Positions 2,647 through 16,626 of a stretch of 64,000 nucleotides of DNA are shown piece after piece. Below the pieces are notes generated by a model. The model was not told where the DNA came from, ran no database searches, and saw nothing but the letters and a program-made list of their open reading frames with translations. The position numbers and the translations under genes were made by a program. Numbering within the stretch: position 1 is the stretch's first letter; each line of letters opens with the position of its first letter. Source of the stretch: Halorubrum salinarum (GTDB taxonomy: Archaea; Halobacteriota; Halobacteria; Halobacteriales; Haloferacaceae); contig NZ_CP053941.1 of NCBI RefSeq assembly GCF_013267195.1, positions 310,001-374,000 on the forward strand, given 5' to 3'.

Positions 2647-4392
2647 ATGAGCCTGGACTGGGAGGACCTCCGCTCACTAATCCAATGGGTCGTCCCCTGT
2701 GTGGCCATCGGGGCTACGTTGCTCGCCGCGCTCGTCCCAAGCCTGTTCGCTGTCGATCAATCAGTCCAGGGCCTCCTCCAGACGCTCGTTACTGCCCAAG
2801 CGAGCATCCTTGCAATCGTCGTCTCAGTCACACTCCTGGCGACCCAACTGGTGGCAACGAACTACGCCCCGCGGATGTCGACGCTCCTCCTGCGAACGGA
2901 CCAGTTCAGGCAAACCTTCGCCCTATTCATCGGCTCGATCACTCTCGACCTCGTCGTGTACCTCGCCCTCGGGCAGGCCCAACACCCCCTTCTCTCCGGG
3001 CTATTTTACAGTACCCTAGTGCTGTTCGTCCTGGTCCTAGTATCGATCTACCTGTTCTCGATTGAGATGGTCACTCAATCGATTCCGGAACGCTTCGTAG
3101 AACTGTTCACCCAGACGGTCTCGCTCGAGGAGTACATCGACAAAGTCGAAGCTTACGCCGAGAGCCCGGAGTCGAACACACACCCGCTACAACCGCTTTT
3201 TCGCTATACCATGACAGCGTTGTCGAAAGGCGAGTATTCAGCTGCTACCTCGGCGTTAGACCACTATATCCCCTACACAGAGAAGACCCTCACCGAGGTC
3301 GAGGAGCGGGAGTTGTTGGATGATTCGGAGTTCGGCGCTAAGGAGGAACTGTTTGGCCCGGTCCTGAAAGACCATCTCCACCTCATCGCTCAGCACGCCG
3401 CCGAGAACGACGAATCACAAATACGGAATACGGCGATTAGGGGCCAGGTCGAGATCGGCACACAAGGGGTTGGAATTGGGCCACAGTCACGAGTCACGAA
3501 TCAGGCCTTGAGGGGGCTCCAGAACACGATTCGCGACGGGCCGTATACCGACCGCGGGTACGCCTCACTGAACCAGTGCTGGAAAGGAGTGGGCGAATTG
3601 GCCGAAGCTGCCTCTGAGGTCGAATCGAGCACGACCGTGCTTACAGCTCGTGGAATCGTACGCCGGTGGCTGCGCCATTCCGTCAGAACTGTCGAAGAAC
3701 CTGGGTGGATGTCCGACTCGTCTCGTGTCTTGTTCGAGCACCTCTGTGAGGCGCATGCAAATACGCTCGACTTAATCGGTGAGAACCAGCCTCTCAAACA
3801 GTTCGGGCCCGACGACCTACATGGCGACGGCAGACAAACACCGCCTGATGTAGTCGAACAACTGCGATATTGTCAGCAAGCACTCTTCGAGTTCACCAGC
3901 GTCTTTCTCGAGCATCGAATCGAGAACGGGCGATGGATACCGACTGAAGGCAATTACAGGCGAGCCTGGCAGAACCTCGTAATCGATACTGCTGACACTG
4001 GTGCCACTGTCTTAGCCGTTGACCTGTGCGAGGTGCTGATCCAGATGGCCTTTATCGAGAACACAGCCAAGCTCCCATCTGTTGATCGGCCCACAGCCAG
4101 GGGGATCGACCCAGTGGATCTGAACGAGGTCAGCCACTGGGTCAGAGAACTTCAGACAATCGAAGAAAAAACGGCCTCCGATGTCGTCTCTCGGGCCTTC
4201 GAGAACCTCCTATCGTACGAACCAGTGGACCCGTCGCCAAACCACTTCATCGTGACTGGTGAAGAAGAACCTGAACGAGAAGAGCTCTACCAGTTCGATG
4301 TGGACGTCGACGACTACCATGAGCTCAACACGCGAGAGGAGTACCCGGGTGCCCTTCGTCAGTTGAGAGATGAAGTTCTCAGGCCCGGATAG
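2647..4392 (+). CDS. DUF2254-like integral membrane protein with large soluble domain
   Basis: 581 residues. The N-terminus carries four predicted membrane helices (about residues 12-36, 47-72, 88-112 and 117-140). The segment with VSVTLLATQLVATNYAPR followed by a helix after RQTFALFIGS resembles DUF2254 membrane proteins. The remaining ~430 residues are cytoplasmic-looking, helical and acidic, with no motif I recognise. It starts about 100 bases from the divergent nuclease-like gene, so the two may share a regulatory region. Function is unknown; sitting among nucleases it could be a membrane effector of a defence module, but nothing in the sequence proves that. Confidence 0.65.
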   Translation: MSLDWEDLRSLIQWVVPCVAIGATLLAALVPSLFAVDQSVQGLLQTLVTAQASILAIVVSVTLLATQLVATNYAPRMSTLLLRTDQFRQTFALFIGSITLDLVVYLALGQAQHPLLSGLFYSTLVLFVLVLVSIYLFSIEMVTQSIPERFVELFTQTVSLEEYIDKVEAYAESPESNTHPLQPLFRYTMTALSKGEYSAATSALDHYIPYTEKTLTEVEERELLDDSEFGAKEELFGPVLKDHLHLIAQHAAENDESQIRNTAIRGQVEIGTQGVGIGPQSRVTNQALRGLQNTIRDGPYTDRGYASLNQCWKGVGELAEAASEVESSTTVLTARGIVRRWLRHSVRTVEEPGWMSDSSRVLFEHLCEAHANTLDLIGENQPLKQFGPDDLHGDGRQTPPDVVEQLRYCQQALFEFTSVFLEHRIENGRWIPTEGNYRRAWQNLVIDTADTGATVLAVDLCEVLIQMAFIENTAKLPSVDRPTARGIDPVDLNEVSHWVRELQTIEEKTASDVVSRAFENLLSYEPVDPSPNHFIVTGEEEPEREELYQFDVDVDDYHELNTREEYPGALRQLRDEVLRPG

Positions 4393-4519: not shown

Positions 4520-5830
4520 ATGGACGAGCGGTTATACGACGCGTATCAGCAAATTTGGGAACCTCCAAAGACCGACGAAGTACGTATTCAAATGGGTCAG
4601 GAATCTGCATTCAAGACGAACCTTTACAACGCAATCCGGGATCTCGGACTTGACAGAGATCACCACCGAATCACGAATAGAGGTCTCGCCAGGAAATTTC
4701 AAGAAGGACTCATCGAGATAGCCGAAACGCACGGGACAGACCTTACCGAAGACGAGTTGAGCGCTCATTTTCAGAACAAGAAGAACAATATTTTCTCGAA
4801 TTGGTTAGGGACACCACCAGGCACGTACACGCTTGTCTTCCCGATAATGATTCGGAGCAAGCATTTCCCAAATGAGGTCGAGCTCTACGAGTCGAAAATA
4901 GAGCAAATCGACGAAAGCAAGTGGGAAGACCATCTCACGACGGCCAAAAATGATGATGAGTCAAACTTCGACTCCTTCTTGGATGAACTCCCGAACGACT
5001 ACTCTGACCACCCGTTGAAACGCCGTGAGTGGACCTATTTGAAAGTCGAAATTGAAGCACGAGACGAATTCTATGGCCTATACTGGGTCTCTGAACTCAT
5101 CGAAACACGCTTCGCGGAGATAAACTTCTTCGATCAACTCTGGGTCGCAGGTATGCCGCAACCGGGGGGTTCAGACCGTCCTTCCTACGAGAAATGGACC
5201 AGACATCAAGAACCACCGTTCTACCTCATATTCCAAGAAGGGGATTTCGTTACGTATCGCCCGATGGATTTCGATTATCGGCGTTCGATAGGTCGCTTCC
5301 ATTTCAACCACACAGATGATGTCGACGAAATTAGCGACATCCCAACGTTCGACTATGATGCTGACAAGGGAACCTACGAGGGCTATATTATCAGTGCGCT
5401 ACTCGCATATCAAGATGGGATAACCGAACGGCCTGTTCGGCAATCCTTCTTCAGTTTCTGGAGGGGCATCGAGATCCTCTCAAATACCAGCGACTATTCG
5501 AACGCCAGCGACTTCGACAAAATGGTTGACCGTGGCGAATTTGCATTAGCCTATCACCATGACAGGGATGACTCGCTCCGTCCCGAATTGAAGCGGGCTA
5601 TCGAAGAGATAGAGGGGAAACGCCACGAACTCGTTCATGAAGGGCTGAAGACCGAGATTCACCGAGGTCACCGGAATGGTGCGAAATTACTGCTGGACGG
5701 GTTGTTACTCCTACACATCGACAAATACGGACAATGGGATATCGATGATATGGAGTCGTTCCTCAAACATGGCGTCGAATATCAAGAGAAGGTTCAGTTC
5801 GTCACAACGCTGCTATCGGACTTCTCGTAG
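4520..5830 (+). CDS. Putative HEPN-domain ribonuclease
   Basis: 436 residues, orphan. The C-terminal third is helical (from about residue 290) and contains R368-H369-E-L-V-H373, which fits the R-x4-6-H catalytic motif of HEPN ribonucleases, including the usual polar residue after Arg. A preceding helix (FFSFWRGIEILS) is what HEPN bundles normally show. The N-terminal ~280 residues have no recognisable fold and could be the sensor. HEPN enzymes commonly act as RNA-cleaving effectors in toxin-antitoxin and abortive-infection systems, and no antitoxin-sized partner lies next to it. It is convergent with the membrane-protein gene ending at 5845, 14 bases away. Confidence 0.6.
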   Translation: MDERLYDAYQQIWEPPKTDEVRIQMGQESAFKTNLYNAIRDLGLDRDHHRITNRGLARKFQEGLIEIAETHGTDLTEDELSAHFQNKKNNIFSNWLGTPPGTYTLVFPIMIRSKHFPNEVELYESKIEQIDESKWEDHLTTAKNDDESNFDSFLDELPNDYSDHPLKRREWTYLKVEIEARDEFYGLYWVSELIETRFAEINFFDQLWVAGMPQPGGSDRPSYEKWTRHQEPPFYLIFQEGDFVTYRPMDFDYRRSIGRFHFNHTDDVDEISDIPTFDYDADKGTYEGYIISALLAYQDGITERPVRQSFFSFWRGIEILSNTSDYSNASDFDKMVDRGEFALAYHHDRDDSLRPELKRAIEEIEGKRHELVHEGLKTEIHRGHRNGAKLLLDGLLLLHIDKYGQWDIDDMESFLKHGVEYQEKVQFVTTLLSDFS

Positions 5831-5844
5831 CGGTTCCAGGGTTA

Positions 5845-6741
5845 TCACACATTCTCGTCGTCAAGAGAGATCTCCGGCTCGTCAGGAATGTCTCCACCGT
5901 CTTCGTCGAGCTGCTCTCTGAGGTGATTAAATACGTAGACCAATCCACCGACCCATATGACGAATATACTCCCTGGCTCAAGCCATACCGGGACATCCGT
6001 GACGAATGTGAACTCCGCCACCCGAAGTAGATAGGCGAATAGTGGAACCCCGACAGAGAGAACGATCGTTACAACCGTCGCTCGGAGACTTCCTCGAATA
6101 CGTGACGGATCTAACGACTCGTGACGATCAACGAGCCGTTCTCGCTCATCTTGTAGTGACCTGATCTCGGTCATCGTCTGAATCCAGCGACGATAGTTTC
6201 GGTTGTACCGCTCGTTGGTATACATTTGCCACATATGTTCTATCTGATTATTACTCGCGATGACCGCTGAGTCAGTGAAGGTGCCAGGGTCAATGTTGGG
6301 CCCCATCCAACTCGAAGACGGCGTGAGGGCTTCTTGGATATCTTCGAAGTGTTCCTGAAGGACGTTATGCTGTTCTTCGTTTAATCGATCTACTCCAAGG
6401 TAGTCGGCAAACTCCTGCTGTAGCCTTCGTGGTGTGAGGTCGTCAGGATCGATGTCAAATTCGGTTCCGACATGATCCTCGATGAACTCGTCAACCTGAT
6501 CTGCTGCTTCCTCGCGACGTTGGTTGGCTTCCTCTTGTTCCCGAATTTGTTCGAGGGTATCTTGGAAATGCTCGTACTGAGTATCTAAGTTCCCAATACG
6601 GGCATCGATTGTCTCTATACGTCGCTCGATTCGTTCTCGTTGCGCGTTGAGGTTTGATAGGTTACTCGCCAGCAGCGCCGTGAGGATACCAATGAAGACG
6701 CTGGCTGCCCCAGCAAGTGCCGCATAGAACCCCGTAACCAT
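5845..6741 (-). CDS. Coiled-coil membrane protein, partner of the Mrr-like gene
   Basis: 298 residues. One membrane helix at the N-terminus (about residues 5-27), then a long charged coiled coil (about 30-90, with runs of E, R and Q), a soluble middle, and two more membrane helices near the C-terminus (about 218-240 and 256-277). No enzymatic motif is seen. It follows the Mrr-like nuclease gene with only 3 bases between stop and start, so the two are almost certainly one transcript. A sensor/nuclease plus membrane-effector pair is a common design in defence systems; that role is inferred. Confidence 0.65.
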   Translation of the reverse strand: MVTGFYAALAGAASVFIGILTALLASNLSNLNAQRERIERRIETIDARIGNLDTQYEHFQDTLEQIREQEEANQRREEAADQVDEFIEDHVGTEFDIDPDDLTPRRLQQEFADYLGVDRLNEEQHNVLQEHFEDIQEALTPSSSWMGPNIDPGTFTDSAVIASNNQIEHMWQMYTNERYNRNYRRWIQTMTEIRSLQDERERLVDRHESLDPSRIRGSLRATVVTIVLSVGVPLFAYLLRVAEFTFVTDVPVWLEPGSIFVIWVGGLVYVFNHLREQLDEDGGDIPDEPEISLDDENV

Positions 6742-6744
6742 TGG

Positions 6745-7941
6745 TCAGCGATCCCCCTCTTCAAGAAGCGTGTCTCCATTCACTGTGTAACTACCCCGAT
6801 CCCATTTTCCATTCTCAATGTTCTCTGTACCGGCTTCGTGACCAAACTGTCGCCATATTTCCGATAGAATAGGCTCCAAGTCACCGATCACTTCTTCAGA
6901 TCTAATCTGAACCGTCCCGTACTCTGTGGTGTAGAAGTCAGTTCCAAAGGTCGACGGATGAGAAAGTCGAATACCTCTGCCTTGGTTAGGTCGGTCAAGT
7001 TTCACTTCGCTGGCGTCTAAGAATGAGAGGAAAACGAATGCACTCCCCGAAAATCCCATCTTTGCTAACTTGGATACGACATCCCTTGTAGTCAAGACGA
7101 TGTGTGCGTCAAGTCCTATCCCAGCACCACTTTGGATTGCTCCACGAATCCATTGATCACCACCATTCCCGGCTATGATGGCCGATGTTGAAACGGACTC
7201 GTATAGCCCATCATTCTGAAAGAGTCCGTATGAGTGCTTTTCATCACTACCGAGATGATTCCCGTAAGCGATAGTGGACTTCCCTCGAGTCTCAGGGTAA
7301 CTGTGTCGCTCATAGAGAATCGGTGGATCAGGAATCTTCCCTGCTGACTTGACCTTTCTCTTCGAAAATATTCCGTTGGGGATGATATGTAGGACGACAG
7401 CTGGTCCTGATTTAATTTCACTGGCGTCGCCGTCGCGATTCCGAATTTGCTTGAGCCGATCCTGAACCAACTCCTCGATCTCTTCGATGTGGTCACTATC
7501 CCGTTGAAGATCGGCGTCGAGGTACTTCTCCGCTAATTGCTGGTGATTCTGACGTAATTCTCCGAGGATATTGTCCCGGTGGAGGAGTTTCAACCGCCAA
7601 CCGTATTCGCTCTGAATCTCGTCCTCCATCTCCAGCTCTTGCTGTCCCGTAACCCGCTGGTTAGTCACGAACAGCAGGAGGTCGTACTCCTCGTCACGGT
7701 TCTCCTCTAACTGTTCGACCTTCTCGGCGTCATCCCGTAGTTTCCGTTTCCAGTCCTTCCGCTTACTCGCGTGGGCGATTCCGTTCCGCTCACCGAGTTC
7801 GATACGGGCGTCCCAGCCACCATCAGCTCCGGCCCCGCCACTTTCGTGGACCTCATACCCTTCCTCACGGAGAAACGCCATCGAGAAATCCTCGAAACGC
7901 TGCCCGTCGATAGTTTCGAGGGCAAACTCGAGCTCGTCCAT
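6745..7941 (-). CDS. Mrr-like restriction endonuclease domain protein
   Basis: 398 residues. Residues 1-150 look like an Mrr-type restriction endonuclease domain: E17 in the first helix (RFEDFSMAFL), GADGGWD with D44, and a third motif HASKRKDWKRKL (K60/K62), where the usual (E/Q)-x-K is replaced by an S-K-R-K-D-W version. A later strand reads LLLFVTNQ. The C-terminal ~220 residues, starting near VVLHIIPNG, resemble the domain that often follows AlbA_2-type nucleic-acid-binding domains (weak recognition). It is first gene of a two-gene unit with the membrane protein at 5845. A type-IV-like restriction or abortive-infection role is likely; no methyltransferase is nearby. Confidence 0.7.
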   Translation of the reverse strand: MDELEFALETIDGQRFEDFSMAFLREEGYEVHESGGAGADGGWDARIELGERNGIAHASKRKDWKRKLRDDAEKVEQLEENRDEEYDLLLFVTNQRVTGQQELEMEDEIQSEYGWRLKLLHRDNILGELRQNHQQLAEKYLDADLQRDSDHIEEIEELVQDRLKQIRNRDGDASEIKSGPAVVLHIIPNGIFSKRKVKSAGKIPDPPILYERHSYPETRGKSTIAYGNHLGSDEKHSYGLFQNDGLYESVSTSAIIAGNGGDQWIRGAIQSGAGIGLDAHIVLTTRDVVSKLAKMGFSGSAFVFLSFLDASEVKLDRPNQGRGIRLSHPSTFGTDFYTTEYGTVQIRSEEVIGDLEPILSEIWRQFGHEAGTENIENGKWDRGSYTVNGDTLLEEGDR

Positions 7942-7990: not shown

Positions 7991-8758
7991 TTAGGCTTGG
8001 TCCCAGAAGCCGGCGTCGCCGTACTCGACTCGGACTACGTCCTCACATTCTTCGAGTTCTGTCTTGATCTGTTCTCGGTCGTCTCCCGTGATGTCCGCAA
8101 TCTCAGTGGTAGTGATCGGGCCGTATTCGCCAACGAGCTGGTCGTAAGTCGATGGGTCGCCGACAGGCAGGACATCGTTGTCGAGTAAGACGCCATAAGC
8201 AAGACCATATTCGAGGTGACCGCTCCACGGGATCTCGTGGTCTCCGATCGTTACATGCATGATCGGTATTGCCTCGGACTCACCCATATCGTCGATATCC
8301 CCGTACCAGTTCTCCTCAAACTCGTAGGTGTCAAAGCCTACTTCGCCTGCGAGTTCGACGAGCAGCTCACGATCCTCAATATTTCGACCTTCGGCTAACG
8401 CAACGATCCGTAAGCGCCGAAGGTAATCCCGGAAGAGATCCGGATCCAGTTCTTGGGCGACGTGTAGCGCACTCGTTGACAGCTTCGTGTTGTCGGGAAG
8501 TTCAACGACCTGAGCGTAGGGCATGTCGTACCGGGAAGACACTTCTCCCCAGTCGTTGCTGTCGAGTTCACGTGGTGTGAAGGGCTCGTAGGAGAGGTCA
8601 AAACTCAGGCCGAAGTCCTGTTCCAACTTCTTGAGGACGGGTTCGATACCCCAGCCTGTCGCGTCCCAGGCGTCGGTGTAGACGACCAGTTCGCCTTCCT
8701 GTGGCTCTTGATCGTCATCTTCTACAAGTACTGGCAGAACGGGGCCGAGTTTCCGCAC
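7991..8758 (-). CDS. DsbA-family thioredoxin-fold protein lacking the CxxC
   Basis: 255 residues. The first β-strand and helix (VVYTDAWDATGWGIEPVLKKL) and the later helical insert (STSALHVAQELDP, then LRRLRIVALAEGRNIEDRELLVELAGEVGFD) follow the DsbA/FrnE pattern. The place where the redox CxxC should be reads A-T-G-W, so thiol-disulfide exchange is not expected. The last ~60 residues look like a small winged helix (ITTTEIADITGDDREQIKTELEE). It is upstream of the Mrr-like unit on the same strand with ~50 bases between them. It may bind a partner or ligand rather than act as an oxidoreductase. Confidence 0.65.
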   Translation of the reverse strand: MRKLGPVLPVLVEDDDQEPQEGELVVYTDAWDATGWGIEPVLKKLEQDFGLSFDLSYEPFTPRELDSNDWGEVSSRYDMPYAQVVELPDNTKLSTSALHVAQELDPDLFRDYLRRLRIVALAEGRNIEDRELLVELAGEVGFDTYEFEENWYGDIDDMGESEAIPIMHVTIGDHEIPWSGHLEYGLAYGVLLDNDVLPVGDPSTYDQLVGEYGPITTTEIADITGDDREQIKTELEECEDVVRVEYGDAGFWDQA

Positions 8759-8779
8759 CCCGTGGACTACAATCCGTTC

Positions 8780-9484
8780 ATGATCGCGAAAAAGAAAATG
8801 TCTCTCTCAACTCGGCGGGTGAAGGAACCACCCCGAATTCCGGTTGAGGATCTACGGGACGTAGTCCGGGACGTGAAGCACATTCGGGACCGCGCGTTCA
8901 TCGTAACGCAGCTCAAACTGGGCCTGCGCGCCAGTGAGATGGCAAACATCAAGATAAGCGAACTGAACATCACCAACAGCGAAGTGGCTGAGCATTACCC
9001 GGAAATGGGAACCTCACCGCATGTCTCTCGGTTTGAGAACGCCGTCTACATCCCTCACGATCGTGAAGGGAATAAATCAAAACGCCCCCGAATTCTCCCT
9101 GTCGACGAGGAACTTCGCCGACTTTGGATGAACTATCTACTCATCCGGCCTGACAACGAGCAGCCATGGTTGTTCCTCTCTCGTACGAGCAACTCACAGG
9201 TAGACGATGAGGCGATTAACCTCGCTTGGAAGCGCCACTTCCATCCAGAGTATGAAGAGACACAGCAGTACCGGGCTGTAACATCGCACTATGGCCGTCA
9301 CCGGTTCACTACGTTCTGGCGCGTTGAGCAAGACTTGAACCGAGAATTGATCAAATATATGCGCGGTGATACTTCAGCCGGTGGGACTACTGATCCTGCT
9401 GGTGGGATCGACCACTACATCCATAGCTACTATGAGGATATTGAACCACTCTATCGAGAACGAATTTACAAACTGGTGATATAG
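8780..9484 (+). CDS. Short tyrosine recombinase (site-specific integrase)
   Basis: 234 residues from the ATG at 8780. An upstream in-frame ATG at 8708 exists, but that extension would overlap the divergent DsbA-like gene. Catalytic features of the family are visible: Arg in LGLRASEM, a β-hairpin with basic residues before RILPVD, H-x-x-R in SHYGRHRF, and the tyrosine region YIHSYYEDI near the C-terminus. The usual N-terminal core-binding (SAM-like) domain is absent or very short, so the protein is catalytic domain only. Such short recombinases are found in haloarchaeal elements. It may be the integrase of this island or of a smaller nested element. Confidence 0.8.
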   Translation: MIAKKKMSLSTRRVKEPPRIPVEDLRDVVRDVKHIRDRAFIVTQLKLGLRASEMANIKISELNITNSEVAEHYPEMGTSPHVSRFENAVYIPHDREGNKSKRPRILPVDEELRRLWMNYLLIRPDNEQPWLFLSRTSNSQVDDEAINLAWKRHFHPEYEETQQYRAVTSHYGRHRFTTFWRVEQDLNRELIKYMRGDTSAGGTTDPAGGIDHYIHSYYEDIEPLYRERIYKLVI

Positions 9485-9658: not shown

Positions 9659-11284
9659 ATGGACCGAGATACTGTAGGATCTGCCCCACGTAACGGGAAA
9701 ACCTTCGATTCTCGGATACACAAAATTGACAGCGCTGGGAAGGGAGTTATCGAAACCGCCGGTAAAAACGACATAATTCTCGGTCCGGTTGACCAGGACG
9801 CAGTCGGCGAACGGATTGAAGCAATGAAGCTGCCTGGACCATATGCGAGAATCAAGAGACCTAGAAAAATACTTCCTTCAAATTATATTGAAGAACTTCA
9901 GGATCTCGTGCCATACGATTTCTCTATTGACTACGGTGACGCATACGGAACTATCGGGAAACAGGGTTTAGATTATCACGAGAAGGGATACGGAATCCTC
10001 GAGTACGTGCCGCCATGGGAGACTAATGAATTACATGAAGCCACAATTGATAGGAGAAGCAACGCTGGCAATGGAATCGTCTACATAGATGATCGTTCTG
10101 TGAATATTGGACCGGTTCGAGAAGGTGTTACAGGCTCTGATATCACGGTGATTCTGGTTGGGCCGTCAGTCGGTGTCTGTAAGACCATCTCCGTAAGAGC
10201 AGAGAACTATTTCAAAAACCTGCCGAAATCCATAGATGAAGATCTAATTGACACTACAGATAATTTTAAAATTGGTATGAAGGTCCGAGACCGTGAGGCG
10301 GATGATTCAAAAAATTTTGTTGTCGTCAATCTTCCTCCAATCCCGGCCCAAGACTACATCGTATATCACGGCAGTCAAACAGAGATTTCGGTTGCCGAAG
10401 ACAACCCTCAGTATGACCAATTTGCCTCTGTTGTCATCGTCGTCGATGAAAAGACCCTAACCGAGGAGTATCCAGATTTTACTGGCGACAAACCAATACC
10501 GTTGGAAACTCTCTCCAGCGGTAATACAGACCATTACACGTTTCCTCCAGAGCGTCTGGAACCAACCGGGGATTACCTTTCACAAGCAATTGAAGATTCA
10601 GAACAGATAGATCCGGGAACTGTTTCTCAAGTAGATTCGTCACATCCTAGCCATTTCGATTCCAACGAATCAGGCGGTGAAGTAGATAATAGTGAACCAG
10701 AAGATGTGATAGCCAACGACGACTCTCCAAATAAATATCGGACACATTTAAACAGCGGTTCTGAAATAAATTCTAGTGATCTGAATGCTTCAACAGCTAC
10801 AGATCAGACAAACCCGGAGGCAACCAACTCACGTTATTCACCTAGCACAGATGAAGAAGAATCCAGTCGATCGCAGGACCAGCAGAGGAATACCTCGTCT
10901 CCAGAATCAGGCAGTAAGGATCTAGACGAGCTTCGAGAGAAAGCACAAGAAAGTGCTGTTGAGGAAGTATCTCAGGGAGCAGTTACCACGAATTCGACCT
11001 CTCAGTATTCCCGTTCATCCGAAATCCGCGAATATGTAATGGCTCGTGCAGATGGAACATGCGAGGGATGTAACAACCCTGCTCCATTCACTAGCAAGAC
11101 TGGAGAACCCTATCTACATGCCCATCATATCCACGAATTGAGCGACGGAGGCTCAGATACACCTGATACGGTTACAGCACTTTGCCCCAACTGCCATTAT
11201 CGAGTTCACCATGGTAAGAACGGTGACGAGTTCAACAAAGAGTTGCTAGAAAAGGTTCAGCGGCTTGAGGAGGACAGAAATTAG
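9659..11284 (+). CDS. HNH endonuclease with TRAM-like N-terminal domain(s)
   Basis: 541 residues. The last ~85 residues are an HNH nuclease: CEGC zinc knuckle, HAHHIHELSDGG with the catalytic His, then CPNC-HYRVHH. The N-terminus (about residues 18-65) reads like a TRAM β-barrel (KIDSAGKGVI ... ILGPV). A second similar stretch lies at about 140-185 (GNGIVYIDDRSVNIGPV). A long low-complexity linker rich in S, N, D and E (about 320-450) joins the two halves. HNH enzymes of this layout often cut modified or foreign DNA. GC is markedly low for this genome, a sign of transfer. It is convergent with the nuclease-like gene at 11294, 9 bases apart. Confidence 0.75.
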   Translation: MDRDTVGSAPRNGKTFDSRIHKIDSAGKGVIETAGKNDIILGPVDQDAVGERIEAMKLPGPYARIKRPRKILPSNYIEELQDLVPYDFSIDYGDAYGTIGKQGLDYHEKGYGILEYVPPWETNELHEATIDRRSNAGNGIVYIDDRSVNIGPVREGVTGSDITVILVGPSVGVCKTISVRAENYFKNLPKSIDEDLIDTTDNFKIGMKVRDREADDSKNFVVVNLPPIPAQDYIVYHGSQTEISVAEDNPQYDQFASVVIVVDEKTLTEEYPDFTGDKPIPLETLSSGNTDHYTFPPERLEPTGDYLSQAIEDSEQIDPGTVSQVDSSHPSHFDSNESGGEVDNSEPEDVIANDDSPNKYRTHLNSGSEINSSDLNASTATDQTNPEATNSRYSPSTDEEESSRSQDQQRNTSSPESGSKDLDELREKAQESAVEEVSQGAVTTNSTSQYSRSSEIREYVMARADGTCEGCNNPAPFTSKTGEPYLHAHHIHELSDGGSDTPDTVTALCPNCHYRVHHGKNGDEFNKELLEKVQRLEEDRN

Positions 11285-11293
11285 AAAACTCGA

Positions 11294-12571
11294 CTATTGG
11301 AGATCAAATAGTTTGACAGCGACCTTGACCGGAGTACCTGAATCAATCTGGAATCGGTACACATTGTGGTCGTCGTGGCCCGGTAACTCTGTCTCAAATC
11401 GTTCGTGACTCTTCGTAGCCTCCCTAGCCTTCTCCTGGATCTCGTTAAACCTTGATCTCCTAGAGAACATCATCAAACACGCGTGAGAGTCACGGACTGT
11501 TAGATTCCCCAAAAGCTGATCCATCGCATCTATGAACTGGGCCTGTCCTGACCAGAACTTACATTCCGCAACGAACAGATTCCAGTTCTCATACGGAAGC
11601 AGAATATCCGTCTTTCCGCTCCGATTGAAAGACTCACCCTGTGCAATCCCGGCGTAGTGAGAGTTGATGCCAATAAGGAAAATATCACGTAGAGACTCCT
11701 CATCCAGATCACGCACCGTATCAACTGACCGCTCAATATTTACTCCGAGATCGTCGATAAGATTCAGAATCTCCAAATAGTGGTTGTCCGGGATAATACT
11801 CGGAGAACTGCTGTCGTCAGGTTTTGGAAGTTCAATACTCCGCTTCTTCTCTGGGACTACAAATCCCTGATCCCCTGACCCTTCCGTTTCGACACCAAGT
11901 TCCTCCATCACCTGCGTCTTGGTTTCAATCTCTCCCCGACGCCGTTCAATCGCTGAACGAGCCTTGGTCTCAGCCTTCTCCCGCATCTGCCTGATATCTG
12001 AATTCAGGTTCTCAACCCACGAGCGGACATCATCTCTCCACCCCTCAATATCAGACCGAAGTTCCTCACCTACCTCTTCCGCATCACGATTCTGCGTCCG
12101 GTAATCGAAGTACCTCACAACCTCACTGCTTTTGAGCTTGTCGTACAATGGAGGGTTGAAGTTGTAGCTGCTAGGCTTGTAACGGAATAATTCCTTATTT
12201 CCGTCAAACTGGAACTTCACCTTCAGCCTCTCGTATTTTCTCGTTGGTGTGCCTCGACCAAGGCTTGGGATCCCGGTCTGGTTTTGAACTTCTTTCTCAA
12301 CCTGCCCTACGTCCTCCTTTATAACGTCATAAAGGTGGATTTGAGAAGGCGTATATTTGGAAGAGAAAATTATCGCTAGAGAGTCTGTACTGTTCTCATC
12401 CAGTTCTCCCGAGGTGAGGGATGAAATCTCGTCCTCCATTTCCCCCATTTTCTCACGCTTCAAATCGTGGAAATTGTAATCACAGAATAGAGTGCCTCTG
12501 TTCCTTCCCATTACCCGGGATTCGCCAGTCCAACATATTGATTCTTCCCCACACAATGGAATGCTGACCAA
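11294..12571 (-). CDS. PD-(D/E)xK nuclease-domain protein
   Basis: 425 residues (a later in-frame ATG at 12511 is an alternative start). The C-terminal domain is a clear PD-(D/E)xK fold: LRDIFLIGINSHY, GESFNRSGKTDILL with D322, a 13-residue gap, then VAECKFW with E336-x-K338, followed by a helix AMDQLLGNL. The middle (about 165-220) is a charged coiled coil. A Cys-rich N-terminus (C7, C13, C29) might bind zinc if the long start is right. Proteins with this C-terminal signature occur in restriction and defence neighbourhoods. It is divergent from nop5 with ~280 bases between them and is the last island gene. Confidence 0.7.
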   Translation of the reverse strand: MVSIPLCGEESICWTGESRVMGRNRGTLFCDYNFHDLKREKMGEMEDEISSLTSGELDENSTDSLAIIFSSKYTPSQIHLYDVIKEDVGQVEKEVQNQTGIPSLGRGTPTRKYERLKVKFQFDGNKELFRYKPSSYNFNPPLYDKLKSSEVVRYFDYRTQNRDAEEVGEELRSDIEGWRDDVRSWVENLNSDIRQMREKAETKARSAIERRRGEIETKTQVMEELGVETEGSGDQGFVVPEKKRSIELPKPDDSSSPSIIPDNHYLEILNLIDDLGVNIERSVDTVRDLDEESLRDIFLIGINSHYAGIAQGESFNRSGKTDILLPYENWNLFVAECKFWSGQAQFIDAMDQLLGNLTVRDSHACLMMFSRRSRFNEIQEKAREATKSHERFETELPGHDDHNVYRFQIDSGTPVKVAVKLFDLQ

Positions 12572-12709: not shown

Positions 12710-12849
12710 ACATTCGTCATTAGTTGCTTCAGTCACCGACTTGTGCCGAATATTAGATGAGGAATATTTCAACACAGTCGTTTTTTGAGACGAATTCAAA
12801 GACTGCCACATCGGGATACATATACGAATTCGAGTCCACAACTCAGTAT

Positions 12850-13755
12850 ATGACTGACGCCGGCCCCGACTCAGGTTGGTTTGAATCGGTTCCACCTGAC
12901 GACCTCGAAGCCGCCCGAAAGGCCATTGAAAACGGTAGCACAGAAACGCCAAAAGATTGGCCCACAAAGGCTGTTGAGGCTGACTTCGCGGAAGACCAAG
13001 AGGAATATTACGATAGACTCCATGAAGCAACAATTTACGCCACCCGAGGAGCCGTACAAGAAAGAGAAAGATCAGATGACCAACAGTTAAAACATAGTAT
13101 TCGTGCCATGGACGACGCGGAGCGCGTGGCCAACGAGCTCGCCGAACGCGCCGTCGAGTGGGCCGGGAGCCTCTTCGACGACGTGGGGTCCGGCGTCGAG
13201 GGCGCCCGGGCGATCGCGGCCCGCGAGCCGGAGAGCGAGGTCGAGCGGCGGGCGGTGTCGCTCGCGGCGCGCGCGGCCGACTTGGACGACGAGCGGGCCG
13301 AACTCGCGGCGACGATCGGTCGGATCGCGCCCGCGGTCGCGCCGAACCTCACCGAGATGGCCGGGCCGGAGCTCGCCGCGCGCCTGATCGCGCTCGCGGG
13401 CGGCCTGGAGTCGCTCGCGAAGAAGCCCTCGGGCACGGTTCAGGTGCTCGGCGCCGAGGACGCGCTGTTCGCGCACCTCTCGGGGCGGGCCCCCTCGCCG
13501 AAACACGGGATCATCTACACGCACGAGTTCGTCCGCGGCACGCGACCGGCGGACCGCGGCTCGGCGGCGCGCGCGCTCGCCGGGAAGCTGACGCTCGCGG
13601 CGCGGGCCGACCACTACGCCGGCGAGCGACGGGCGCAGCTCCACGACGACCTCCGGGAGCGGATGGCGACGATTCGCGCCCGCGCAGACGAGGAAGCGGG
13701 GAGCGACCGCGACGGCGACGGAGCGGCGAGCGAGGGGGAGGCCGACGATGAGTGA
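12850..13755 (+). CDS. nop5: NOP5/NOP56-family C/D-box sRNP core protein, chimeric 5' end
   Basis: 301 residues from the ATG at 12850; an in-frame ATG at 12757 would add 31 residues not typical of the family. It binds C/D-box guide RNAs and fibrillarin to position 2'-O-methylation of rRNA and tRNA. The Nop domain is recognisable (AARAADLDDERAEL, VAPNLTEMAGPELAARLI, KKPSGTVQVLGAEDALF, HGIIYTHEFV). Codons 1-86 use A/T-ending codons freely (about 8 of the last 30 before the switch end in G/C). From the ATG at 13,108 onward nearly every codon ends in G/C. The protein sequence stays family-like across the join, so the 5' part is a functional but foreign copy. It overlaps flpA by 8 bases. Confidence 0.9.
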   Translation: MTDAGPDSGWFESVPPDDLEAARKAIENGSTETPKDWPTKAVEADFAEDQEEYYDRLHEATIYATRGAVQERERSDDQQLKHSIRAMDDAERVANELAERAVEWAGSLFDDVGSGVEGARAIAAREPESEVERRAVSLAARAADLDDERAELAATIGRIAPAVAPNLTEMAGPELAARLIALAGGLESLAKKPSGTVQVLGAEDALFAHLSGRAPSPKHGIIYTHEFVRGTRPADRGSAARALAGKLTLAARADHYAGERRAQLHDDLRERMATIRARADEEAGSDRDGDGAASEGEADDE

Positions 13756-14386
13756 GCCGTCCCTTCCCGACGGGGTCGAGCGCCGCCAGATAGCTGGCGA
13801 GGAGCGGTTGGCGACCCGCGGCGAGCCGGTGTACGGCGAGCCGACCGCGGACGGCTGGCGCGCGTGGGACCCCGAGCGGTCGAAGCTCGGCGGCATGCTG
13901 GAGCTCGGGCTGGAGACCGGGCTCGCGGGCGGGGAGACGGTCCTCTACCTCGGCGCGGCGAGCGGGACGACCGTCAGCCACGTCGCCGACTTCGCCGGGC
14001 CGACGTACGCGGTCGAGTTCGCCCCGCGGCCGGCGCGCGACCTGCTCGACGCCGCCGAACCGCGCGACAGGCTCTTCCCGCTGCTCAAGGACGCTCGGAG
14101 GCCCGAGACGTACGCGCACGTGGTGGAGGCCGACGTCGACGCGGTCGTTCAGGACGTGGCCACGCGCGGGCAGGCCGACGTGGCCGTGCGCAACGCGCGG
14201 TTCCTCGCCGACGACGGCCGACTGCTGCTCGCGATCAAGGCGCGCAGCGAGGACGTGACCGCGGCGCCGGACGCGGTGTTCGATGACGCGCTCGACCGCC
14301 TTCGGGAGGCGTACGAGGTCCTGGAGACGCGGCGGCTCGACCGGTTCCACGAGGACCACCTCGGCGTCGTGGCGACGCCGAAGTGA
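13748..14386 (+). CDS. flpA: Fibrillarin-like rRNA/tRNA 2'-O-methyltransferase
   Basis: 212 residues, normal length for archaeal fibrillarin. SAM-binding fold with VLYLGAASGTTVSHVAD, the acidic strand YAVEFAPRPARDLL, and later LLLAIKARSED and DHLGVVA at the C-terminus. It methylates riboses at sites chosen by C/D guide RNAs, working with Nop5 and L7Ae. Its start overlaps the nop5 stop, the usual translationally coupled archaeal pair. It ends directly against the convergent HTH gene with no spacer. Confidence 0.95.
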   Translation: MSEPSLPDGVERRQIAGEERLATRGEPVYGEPTADGWRAWDPERSKLGGMLELGLETGLAGGETVLYLGAASGTTVSHVADFAGPTYAVEFAPRPARDLLDAAEPRDRLFPLLKDARRPETYAHVVEADVDAVVQDVATRGQADVAVRNARFLADDGRLLLAIKARSEDVTAAPDAVFDDALDRLREAYEVLETRRLDRFHEDHLGVVATPK

Positions 14387-16541: not shown

Positions 16542-16626
16542 GCGCGGGTTGCCGAGCCAGGCCAAAGGCGTAGCGCTTAGGACGCTATCCCGTAGGGGTC
16601 CGCCGGTTCAAATCCGGTCCCGCGCA
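16542..16626 (+). tRNA. tRNA-Leu (anticodon UAG)
   Basis: Acceptor arms GCGCGGG (16542-16548) and CCCGCGC (16619-16625) pair perfectly, with discriminator A. The anticodon stem is TAGCG/CGCTA around loop CTTAGGA, so the anticodon is TAG. A long variable arm (class II) and the T-loop GGTTCAAATCC confirm leucine. CCA is not encoded. Confidence 0.93.

Follow-up and report, generated by a model that had tools for sequence, protein, structure and literature searches.

The nop5 gene of Halorubrum salinarum appears to be the attachment gene of a site-specific integrative element that belongs to a haloarchaeal family, and we put the probability of this reading at roughly 94%. The element is inferred to have supplied its own nop5 promoter and first 86 codons, which are joined in frame to the remainder of the host gene. 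The original prediction, made from the 64,000 bp stretch of DNA analysed here (the window), held that an inserted element had joined a foreign 5′ third to the native gene, and it is supported by the discovery of the displaced native 5′ end and by conflicting trees for the two parts of nop5.

Composite structure of nop5

The nop5 open reading frame occupies positions 12,850–13,755 of the forward strand (ATG at 12,850, stop at 13,755) and matched the Pfam Nop family (1.7e-37) as well as the NCBIfam aNOP56 equivalog, the latter with an E-value of 1.1e-51 that was nevertheless under the model's cut-off. Plotted along the gene, GC content at third codon positions (GC3) was 0.42 over codons 1–86 and 0.94 from codon 87 onward, with a maximum-likelihood change point at 13,105 (score reached in 0 of 2000 permutations) and the join itself at 13,108. 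The composition break originally noted at this point proved exact, with 8 of 30 codons ending in G or C immediately before 13,108 and 29 of 30 immediately after it. Overall GC content fell leftward across the join from ~0.70 to ~0.47.

We annotate 12,850–13,107 (+) as an element-borne, low-GC replacement for codons 1–86 on the basis of its GC3, its identity to other elements and its dN/dS, and 13,108–13,755 (+), which encodes the coiled coil and Nop domain, as the native remainder on the basis of its GC3 and of the 3′ tree, which groups it with the host species. Downstream in the same operon is the native fibrillarin gene (13,748–14,386, +; Pfam Fibrillarin, 1.1e-51). The putative element-borne nop5 promoter lies at 12,800–12,849 (+), homology between elements beginning at ~12,800, and its TATA box (CATATA, 12,819–12,824) is 31 nt upstream of the ATG, a spacing equal to that of the native promoter and of the other elements.

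Native haloarchaeal nop5 genes (about 30 compared) had high GC3 in both halves (0.69–0.99), and the 5′ drop recurred solely in genomes with a related element or with apparent former carriage of one. Island-free relatives had high-GC nop5 5′ ends, so a low-GC 5′ end in the absence of the island, which would have refuted the prediction, was not encountered. As a separate observation, the nop5 genes of G152, G148 and G164 (loci L095, L100 and L094) showed intermediate 5′ values of 0.69–0.77 against 0.86–0.96 in their 3′ parts; these are possibly old element scars drifting toward host composition.

Displaced native 5′ end and extent of the element

A native 5′ end of nop5 had been expected to the left of the window, and was located there by searching the genome with the Nop5 protein, which returned a second match to codons 1–92 at C1:306,229–306,507 (E-value 1.9e-26) and no other full nop5. 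The displaced 5′ end (C1:306,229–306,519, 3.5 kb left of the window) has a GC3 of 0.97, carries its own TATA box at the native spacing, and is broken within the same codons as the join of the chimera (...GCGGTCCGGGCG ATAAACGAC ATGGCCAGAAAACTAGTATAG). On its left are a ParB/CBS gene and a small ORF, the immediate upstream genes of nop5 in island-free relatives, many of which retain the empty site with these two genes directly upstream of an uninterrupted nop5. Because the displaced end sits in the native neighbourhood and is cut at the same codons, we conclude that the native nop5 has been split by 16.6 kb. The element extends from about C1:306,490 to window position 13,107 (about 16.6 kb) and has a GC content of 0.51 compared with ~0.70 in the surrounding DNA, with the displaced 5′ end at its left and the chimera at its right. 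The nop5 ORF and join in the original prediction were thus right, but the true unit is this ~16.6 kb element and not the 906 bp of nop5.

In all elements the displaced nop5 fragment runs into an in-frame stop within about 20 codons past the core (LV-stop, LL-stop or similar). A small N-terminal Nop5 fragment with the native promoter remains coded at attL, although it is unknown whether it is produced.

Foreign origin of the 5′ copy

In a set of 170 family genomes, nucleotide identity of 82–88% to the low-GC 5′ copy was found in only five others, namely G006 (Halorubrum yunnanense), G033, G167 (Halobellus captivus ZY8), G112 and G124, the last two of which represent other genera; G006 and G033 are draft contigs that terminate in or near the element. 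In all six genomes, including that of the window (G000), the 5′ copy joins the species' own 3′ half at CGTGCY/ATGGACGAC (slash marking the join). Separate trees for the two parts of nop5, which had been proposed as a check, placed the gene differently and in strong conflict: the six element-bearing species formed one clade in the 5′-part tree (support 99/96), and the same six were scattered in the 3′-part tree, where a single clade was rejected (AU p = 1e-36). A sister relationship between the 5′ copy in the window and the species' own displaced copy was also rejected (p = 5e-4), and the nearest relative of the displaced copy was G007, which lies within the host's 3′ clade. A single clade of all element 5′ copies, G143 excluded, was neither shown nor excluded (AU p = 0.11). 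Split nop5 trees and small "truncated nop5" ORFs in annotations are explained by these elements.

The original prediction had named as its alternative a homologous recombination with a lower-GC haloarchaeon, which would have replaced the 5′ third of nop5 beside an island that is adjacent only by chance. The trees do make the 5′ copy foreign to the species, and native nop5 5′ ends seem to have been exchanged among Halorubrum lineages, since trees of the native 5′ and 3′ parts disagree at some points. We reject this alternative, which we consider barely credible, because the native 5′ end still exists, having been moved to the other end of the island instead of being overwritten. Nor can it explain the recurrence of the arrangement, with a join at identical codons in six species, or the presence of an integrase gene and inverted-repeat att arms at the nop5 joint (see below); moreover, the low-GC 5′ copies form one clade and are found only with elements or apparent element scars.

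In G112 (L061:17,770–18,060) an element-type low-GC nop5 5′ end abuts high-GC genes, and neither an element nor a displaced copy was detected beside it. It is possible that this represents a scar following element loss.

A proposed attachment site within the nop5 coding sequence

The attR core at the junction between element and native nop5 is ATGGACGAC (13,108–13,116, +), corresponding to Met-Asp-Asp codons and found in 13 of 15 element copies. The 9-bp core was intact at both ends in G374, G307, G240, G405, G451 and G143. In two elements the ends were not identical, the attL core being ATAAACGAC in G000 and CTCTGGACG in G167; this may reflect the attP sequence or later change, and the exact points of strand exchange are therefore not fixed and remain inferred. 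As the Met-Asp-Asp core falls within a motif whose conservation extends to the solved aNop56 3id5, the target of the element is slowly changing code. The only tRNA genes of the window, at 16,542 and 48,964, are away from the element boundary, and a tRNA target was rejected.

The core is flanked by an inverted repeat, ATAGTATTCG-N-GCCATG. Nearly all copies have CATAGTATTCGNGCYATGGAC at the right element end, the left end is exemplified by GAC-ATGGGACGAATACTATTATAG, and the two ends combined form an inverted repeat around GACGA. In the window, the right-end arm lies at 13,094–13,110 (+) in nop5 codons H-S-I-R-A-M and matches the left-end arm at 13 of 17 positions (p = 5e-5). Between 9 and 15 matches in 17 were observed in 10 of 11 elements, with p < 0.001 in eight: 15 in G374, G307 and G240, 14 in G451, 13 in G000 and G419, and 9–12 in G167, G405, G286 and G465. 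The sole exception was G143, in which no left arm could be recognised.

Across 15 element copies, CAT AGT ATT was identical in 43 of 44 codons having the majority amino acid, compared with a mean third-position majority of 0.62 outside these three codons. This synonymous freeze exists despite dS values of 0.3–0.9 elsewhere in the element copies. The right arm of the integrase site is, on this evidence, embedded in the element's own nop5 codons, and it offers a clear example of protein code that overlaps the binding site of an integrase, with the proviso that the action of the integrase at the site is inferred.

Integrase operon and proposed mechanism

A truncated tyrosine integrase gene that retains the catalytic domain was identified at 8708–9484 (+; Pfam Phage_integrase, 2.2e-10). 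Its product has 94% identity to residues 104–363 of the 363-aa integrase of G033, which comprises SAM-like and catalytic domains (PF02899 and PF00589), and is without about 103 N-terminal residues that include the SAM-like domain. In comparison with L055, the place held in related elements by the integrase N-terminus and the helper genes is occupied in the window by a gene for a thioredoxin/DsbA-like protein (7991–8758, −; Pfam Thioredoxin_5, 1e-5, slightly under the curated cut-off).

An operon of orfB (153 aa), orfA (168 aa) and int (363 aa) adjoins the nop5 copy in G033, G167, G405, G419 and G286. The operon is partial in G307, the integrase of which is frameshifted, int is reduced to its end in G374, and the elements of G143, G451 and G465 showed no integrase. 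Intact integrases in relatives (e.g. G033, G167, G405 and G419) are 363–399 aa long. Both orfA and orfB are conserved with int; the orfB product looks like a coiled coil, and there was no MarR-like Pfam match. In G405 (L116, C10:46,390–46,450) and G286 (L119, 3,801–3,880) 12–27 bp separate the int stop from the start of nop5. The final int codons (R-I-Y-K-L-G-V-stop) contain a TATA-like motif, so that the element nop5 promoter and the 3′ end of int seem to overlap.

We propose that a circular form of the element, the existence of which is inferred, would carry an attP made up of its own promoter and nop5 codons 1–86, which end in one inverted-repeat arm (ATAGTATTCGNGCCATG), followed by a short core (GACGA, within ATGGACGAC) and, at the left end of the element, the second arm. 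The tyrosine integrase would recombine attP with the matching Met-Asp-Asp codons of the chromosomal nop5. This would carry the native promoter and 5′ third to the far end of the element, where the displaced third gains a new stop codon. The native 3′ two thirds would be left fused, in frame, to the element's 5′ copy, giving a full-length chimeric Nop5.

With the N-terminus of its integrase lost, the copy in the window is probably trapped and unable to excise itself, although this is judged from the gene sequence alone. It could be argued more generally that the chimera is only the relic of a dead element, that nop5 survived by chance, and that the AT-rich codons record mutation bias and have no function as a site. 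The truncated integrase of the window, the frameshifted one of G307 and a GC3 that is low across the whole element copy are in keeping with such a history, and for the window's copy taken alone the "locked in" part of it is likely true. We nevertheless consider it unlikely as an account of the chimera, given that relatives retain intact integrases, that CAT AGT ATT is frozen at synonymous positions, and that these same codons form an inverted repeat together with the other end. Under the preferred reading of a site-specific integrative element, any loss of the window's copy that is not a precise excision would disrupt nop5.

Function of the chimera

The 5′ copies of the elements had dN/dS ratios of 0.10–0.30, as in native copies, and are evidently under purifying selection. 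Because of this native-like constraint and the lack of any other full nop5 in the genome, the chimeric gene is very likely the cell's working Nop5; its functionality is inferred from sequence and its essentiality is untested. The original suggestion that nop5 has come under the control of the element is likewise only inferred, the position of the element's TATA box being equal to the native one. At somewhat less than even odds, we tentatively suggest that nop5 elements are order-wide vehicles for the antiviral defence systems of haloarchaea (type I-B CRISPR-Cas, restriction and Pbe/Dnd-like systems) and hold a core gene hostage, since after integration the Nop5 of the cell would depend on the element's own promoter and 5′ coding part. 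If so, imprecise loss of an element would disrupt nop5 and probably also the fibrillarin operon downstream of it, and this would stabilise the defence cargo.

Recurrence across Halobacteriales

Displaced and element nop5 5′ ends were found together in 12 genomes from four families (G000, G167, G132, G143, G240, G286, G307, G374, G405, G419, G451 and G465), with the two ends on separate contigs in G240 and G286; G124 is a thirteenth genome, in which the displaced end has decayed. In an evenly drawn sample of Halobacteriales genomes, both ends were present in 9 of 392 (2.3%). The distance between the displaced and element 5′ ends ranged from 1.2 to about 21 kb. As far as can be read from these genomes, related elements occupy the same nop5 site across the whole order Halobacteriales. 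Second nop5 matches in G212 and G431 were rejected as displaced copies, being frameshifts.

An insertion of 1.2 kb in the nop5 of G132 (L060:8150–10300) has as its sole content an apparent DUF433/DUF5615-like toxin-antitoxin pair, named by eye. Both nop5 5′ copies in this genome are near-identical, as if gene-converted, and the arm motif is absent.

Cargo

The predicted cargo within the window begins with the C-terminal end of a PAS/histidine-kinase gene (1–285, +; ORF C1:308345-310285), which is low in GC and lies within the element. It is followed by genes for a 624-aa protein without a Pfam or PADLOC match (674–2548, −), a DUF2254 membrane protein (2647–4392, +; Pfam, 1.5e-9), a 436-aa protein of unknown family (4520–5830, +), a coiled-coil membrane protein with only weak LMBR1 or coiled-coil matches (5845–6741, −) and an Mrr-type restriction endonuclease (6745–7941, −; Pfam Mrr_cat, 2.9e-7; PADLOC, 2.1e-7). 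Between the integrase gene and nop5 are genes for an HNH nuclease resembling type IV restriction enzymes (9659–11284, +; Pfam HNH, 4.5e-9; PADLOC mREase_IV, 7.8e-20) and for a PDC-S54 candidate phage-defence protein (11294–12571, −; PADLOC, 3.4e-92, 308 bits, full length).

Cargo is variable between nop5 elements and, by annotation, largely concerned with defence; the G000 and G167 elements have only their ends and the integrase in common. Type I-B cas operons were found in four elements, those of G374 (identified by PADLOC) and of G307, G167 and G451 (identified by ORF size and similarity). The G405 element contains PbeA/PbeC and a methyltransferase, and that of G143 contains transporter genes. 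The cas loci are L105:2476-11360 and L106:3-6500 (G374), L107 (G307), L058/L059 (G167) and L113/L117 (G451), and the G374 CRISPR array has at least 98 repeats. The type I-B operon of G451 runs in the opposite orientation, which suggests that these operons were loaded separately.

The insertion might in principle be a provirus, or a plasmid that has integrated, carrying genes for virions or replication, as a similar general type of tyrosine integrase serves haloarchaeal proviruses (PMC8371274). However, no structural, replication, virion or packaging gene was recognised among the ORFs of the G000 element, the ORFs of the compared elements represent defence and metabolic cargo, and searches of viral contigs (with the integrase and with the 5′ copy), of phage records and of plasmids returned no element or circular form, leaving this explanation improbable. 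A match on a Natrinema thermotolerans megaplasmid was rejected as an element, being an ordinary nop5-fibrillarin pair.

Relationship to known integrative elements

SXT/R391 integrative and conjugative elements, which are conjugative bacterial elements of 100 kb, enter the 5′ end of prfC and supply a promoter and 5′ coding sequence. The nop5 element resembles them in entering the 5′ end of its target gene and supplying both, but no conjugation genes were recognised in it. A further close parallel is provided by the dusA-specific islands and prophages of bacteria (PMC4482086; see also PMC8409611). These tyrosine-integrase elements enter a conserved gene for RNA modification at its 5′ end, substitute their own coding sequence and promoter there, and leave the original end beyond their far boundary (PMC4482086). 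The nop5 element shares with them the tyrosine integrase, the in-frame supply of a promoter and 5′ coding part, and the displaced original end. It differs in its archaeal host, in its target, in an integrase of a different lineage within a three-gene operon (no sequence relationship was tested), and in replacing 86 codons, the last of which form an integrase arm.

Among archaeal systems, integrases of the SNJ2 family combine Phage_int_SAM and Phage_integrase domains and share an operon with genes for two small proteins, a coiled coil and a MarR-like one; SNJ2 itself is reported at a tRNA 3′ end, with a 13-bp att site (PMC8371274). The G033 integrase is similar in its SAM-like and catalytic domains and perhaps in its two small partner genes, whereas the nop5 clade uses nop5 coding sequence and not a tRNA 3′ end; no match to the nop5-element integrase was found in a phage collection, although IntSNJ2 itself was not compared. 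Among pTN3/SSV-type integrations, those by pTN3-like integrases target a tRNA gene in its 5′ half, which is left expressed from the integrase promoter, and 14 thaumarchaeal elements reside in protein-coding genes (PMC8371274, PMC6563490), at their 3′-distal ends (PMC6563490). Neither is equivalent to the nop5 elements, the pTN3 target being a tRNA and the thaumarchaeal cases leaving promoter and N-terminus unreplaced. The targets reviewed for tyrosine recombinases of archaea are tRNA genes, intergenic sites and a small number of protein-coding genes, with no 5′ coding replacement among them (PMC8371274), and nop5 is not mentioned in a Halorubrum island survey (PMC11078007) or in work on provirus CRISPR (PMC12596717). 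No report of nop5 as a target, or of 5′-coding replacement in archaea, was found in the open-licence literature. Replacement of a 5′ end together with its promoter is known from bacteria, and the nop5 target and the archaeal case appear to be new, although a report elsewhere is possible. Like the dusA and prfC islands of bacteria, mobile elements in archaea can take over the start of a core gene and need no tRNA as their target. The nop5 site and its integrases could be developed into a tool for inserting DNA at a defined site in haloarchaea.

Sister integrases with 54–64% identity that share the partner genes were noted in G019, G129, G009, G139, G157 and G099 (L120–L125). No nop5 or obvious 5′-gene copy follows these operons, and their target was not found. 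In G157 the operon is followed by repeats resembling a CRISPR array.
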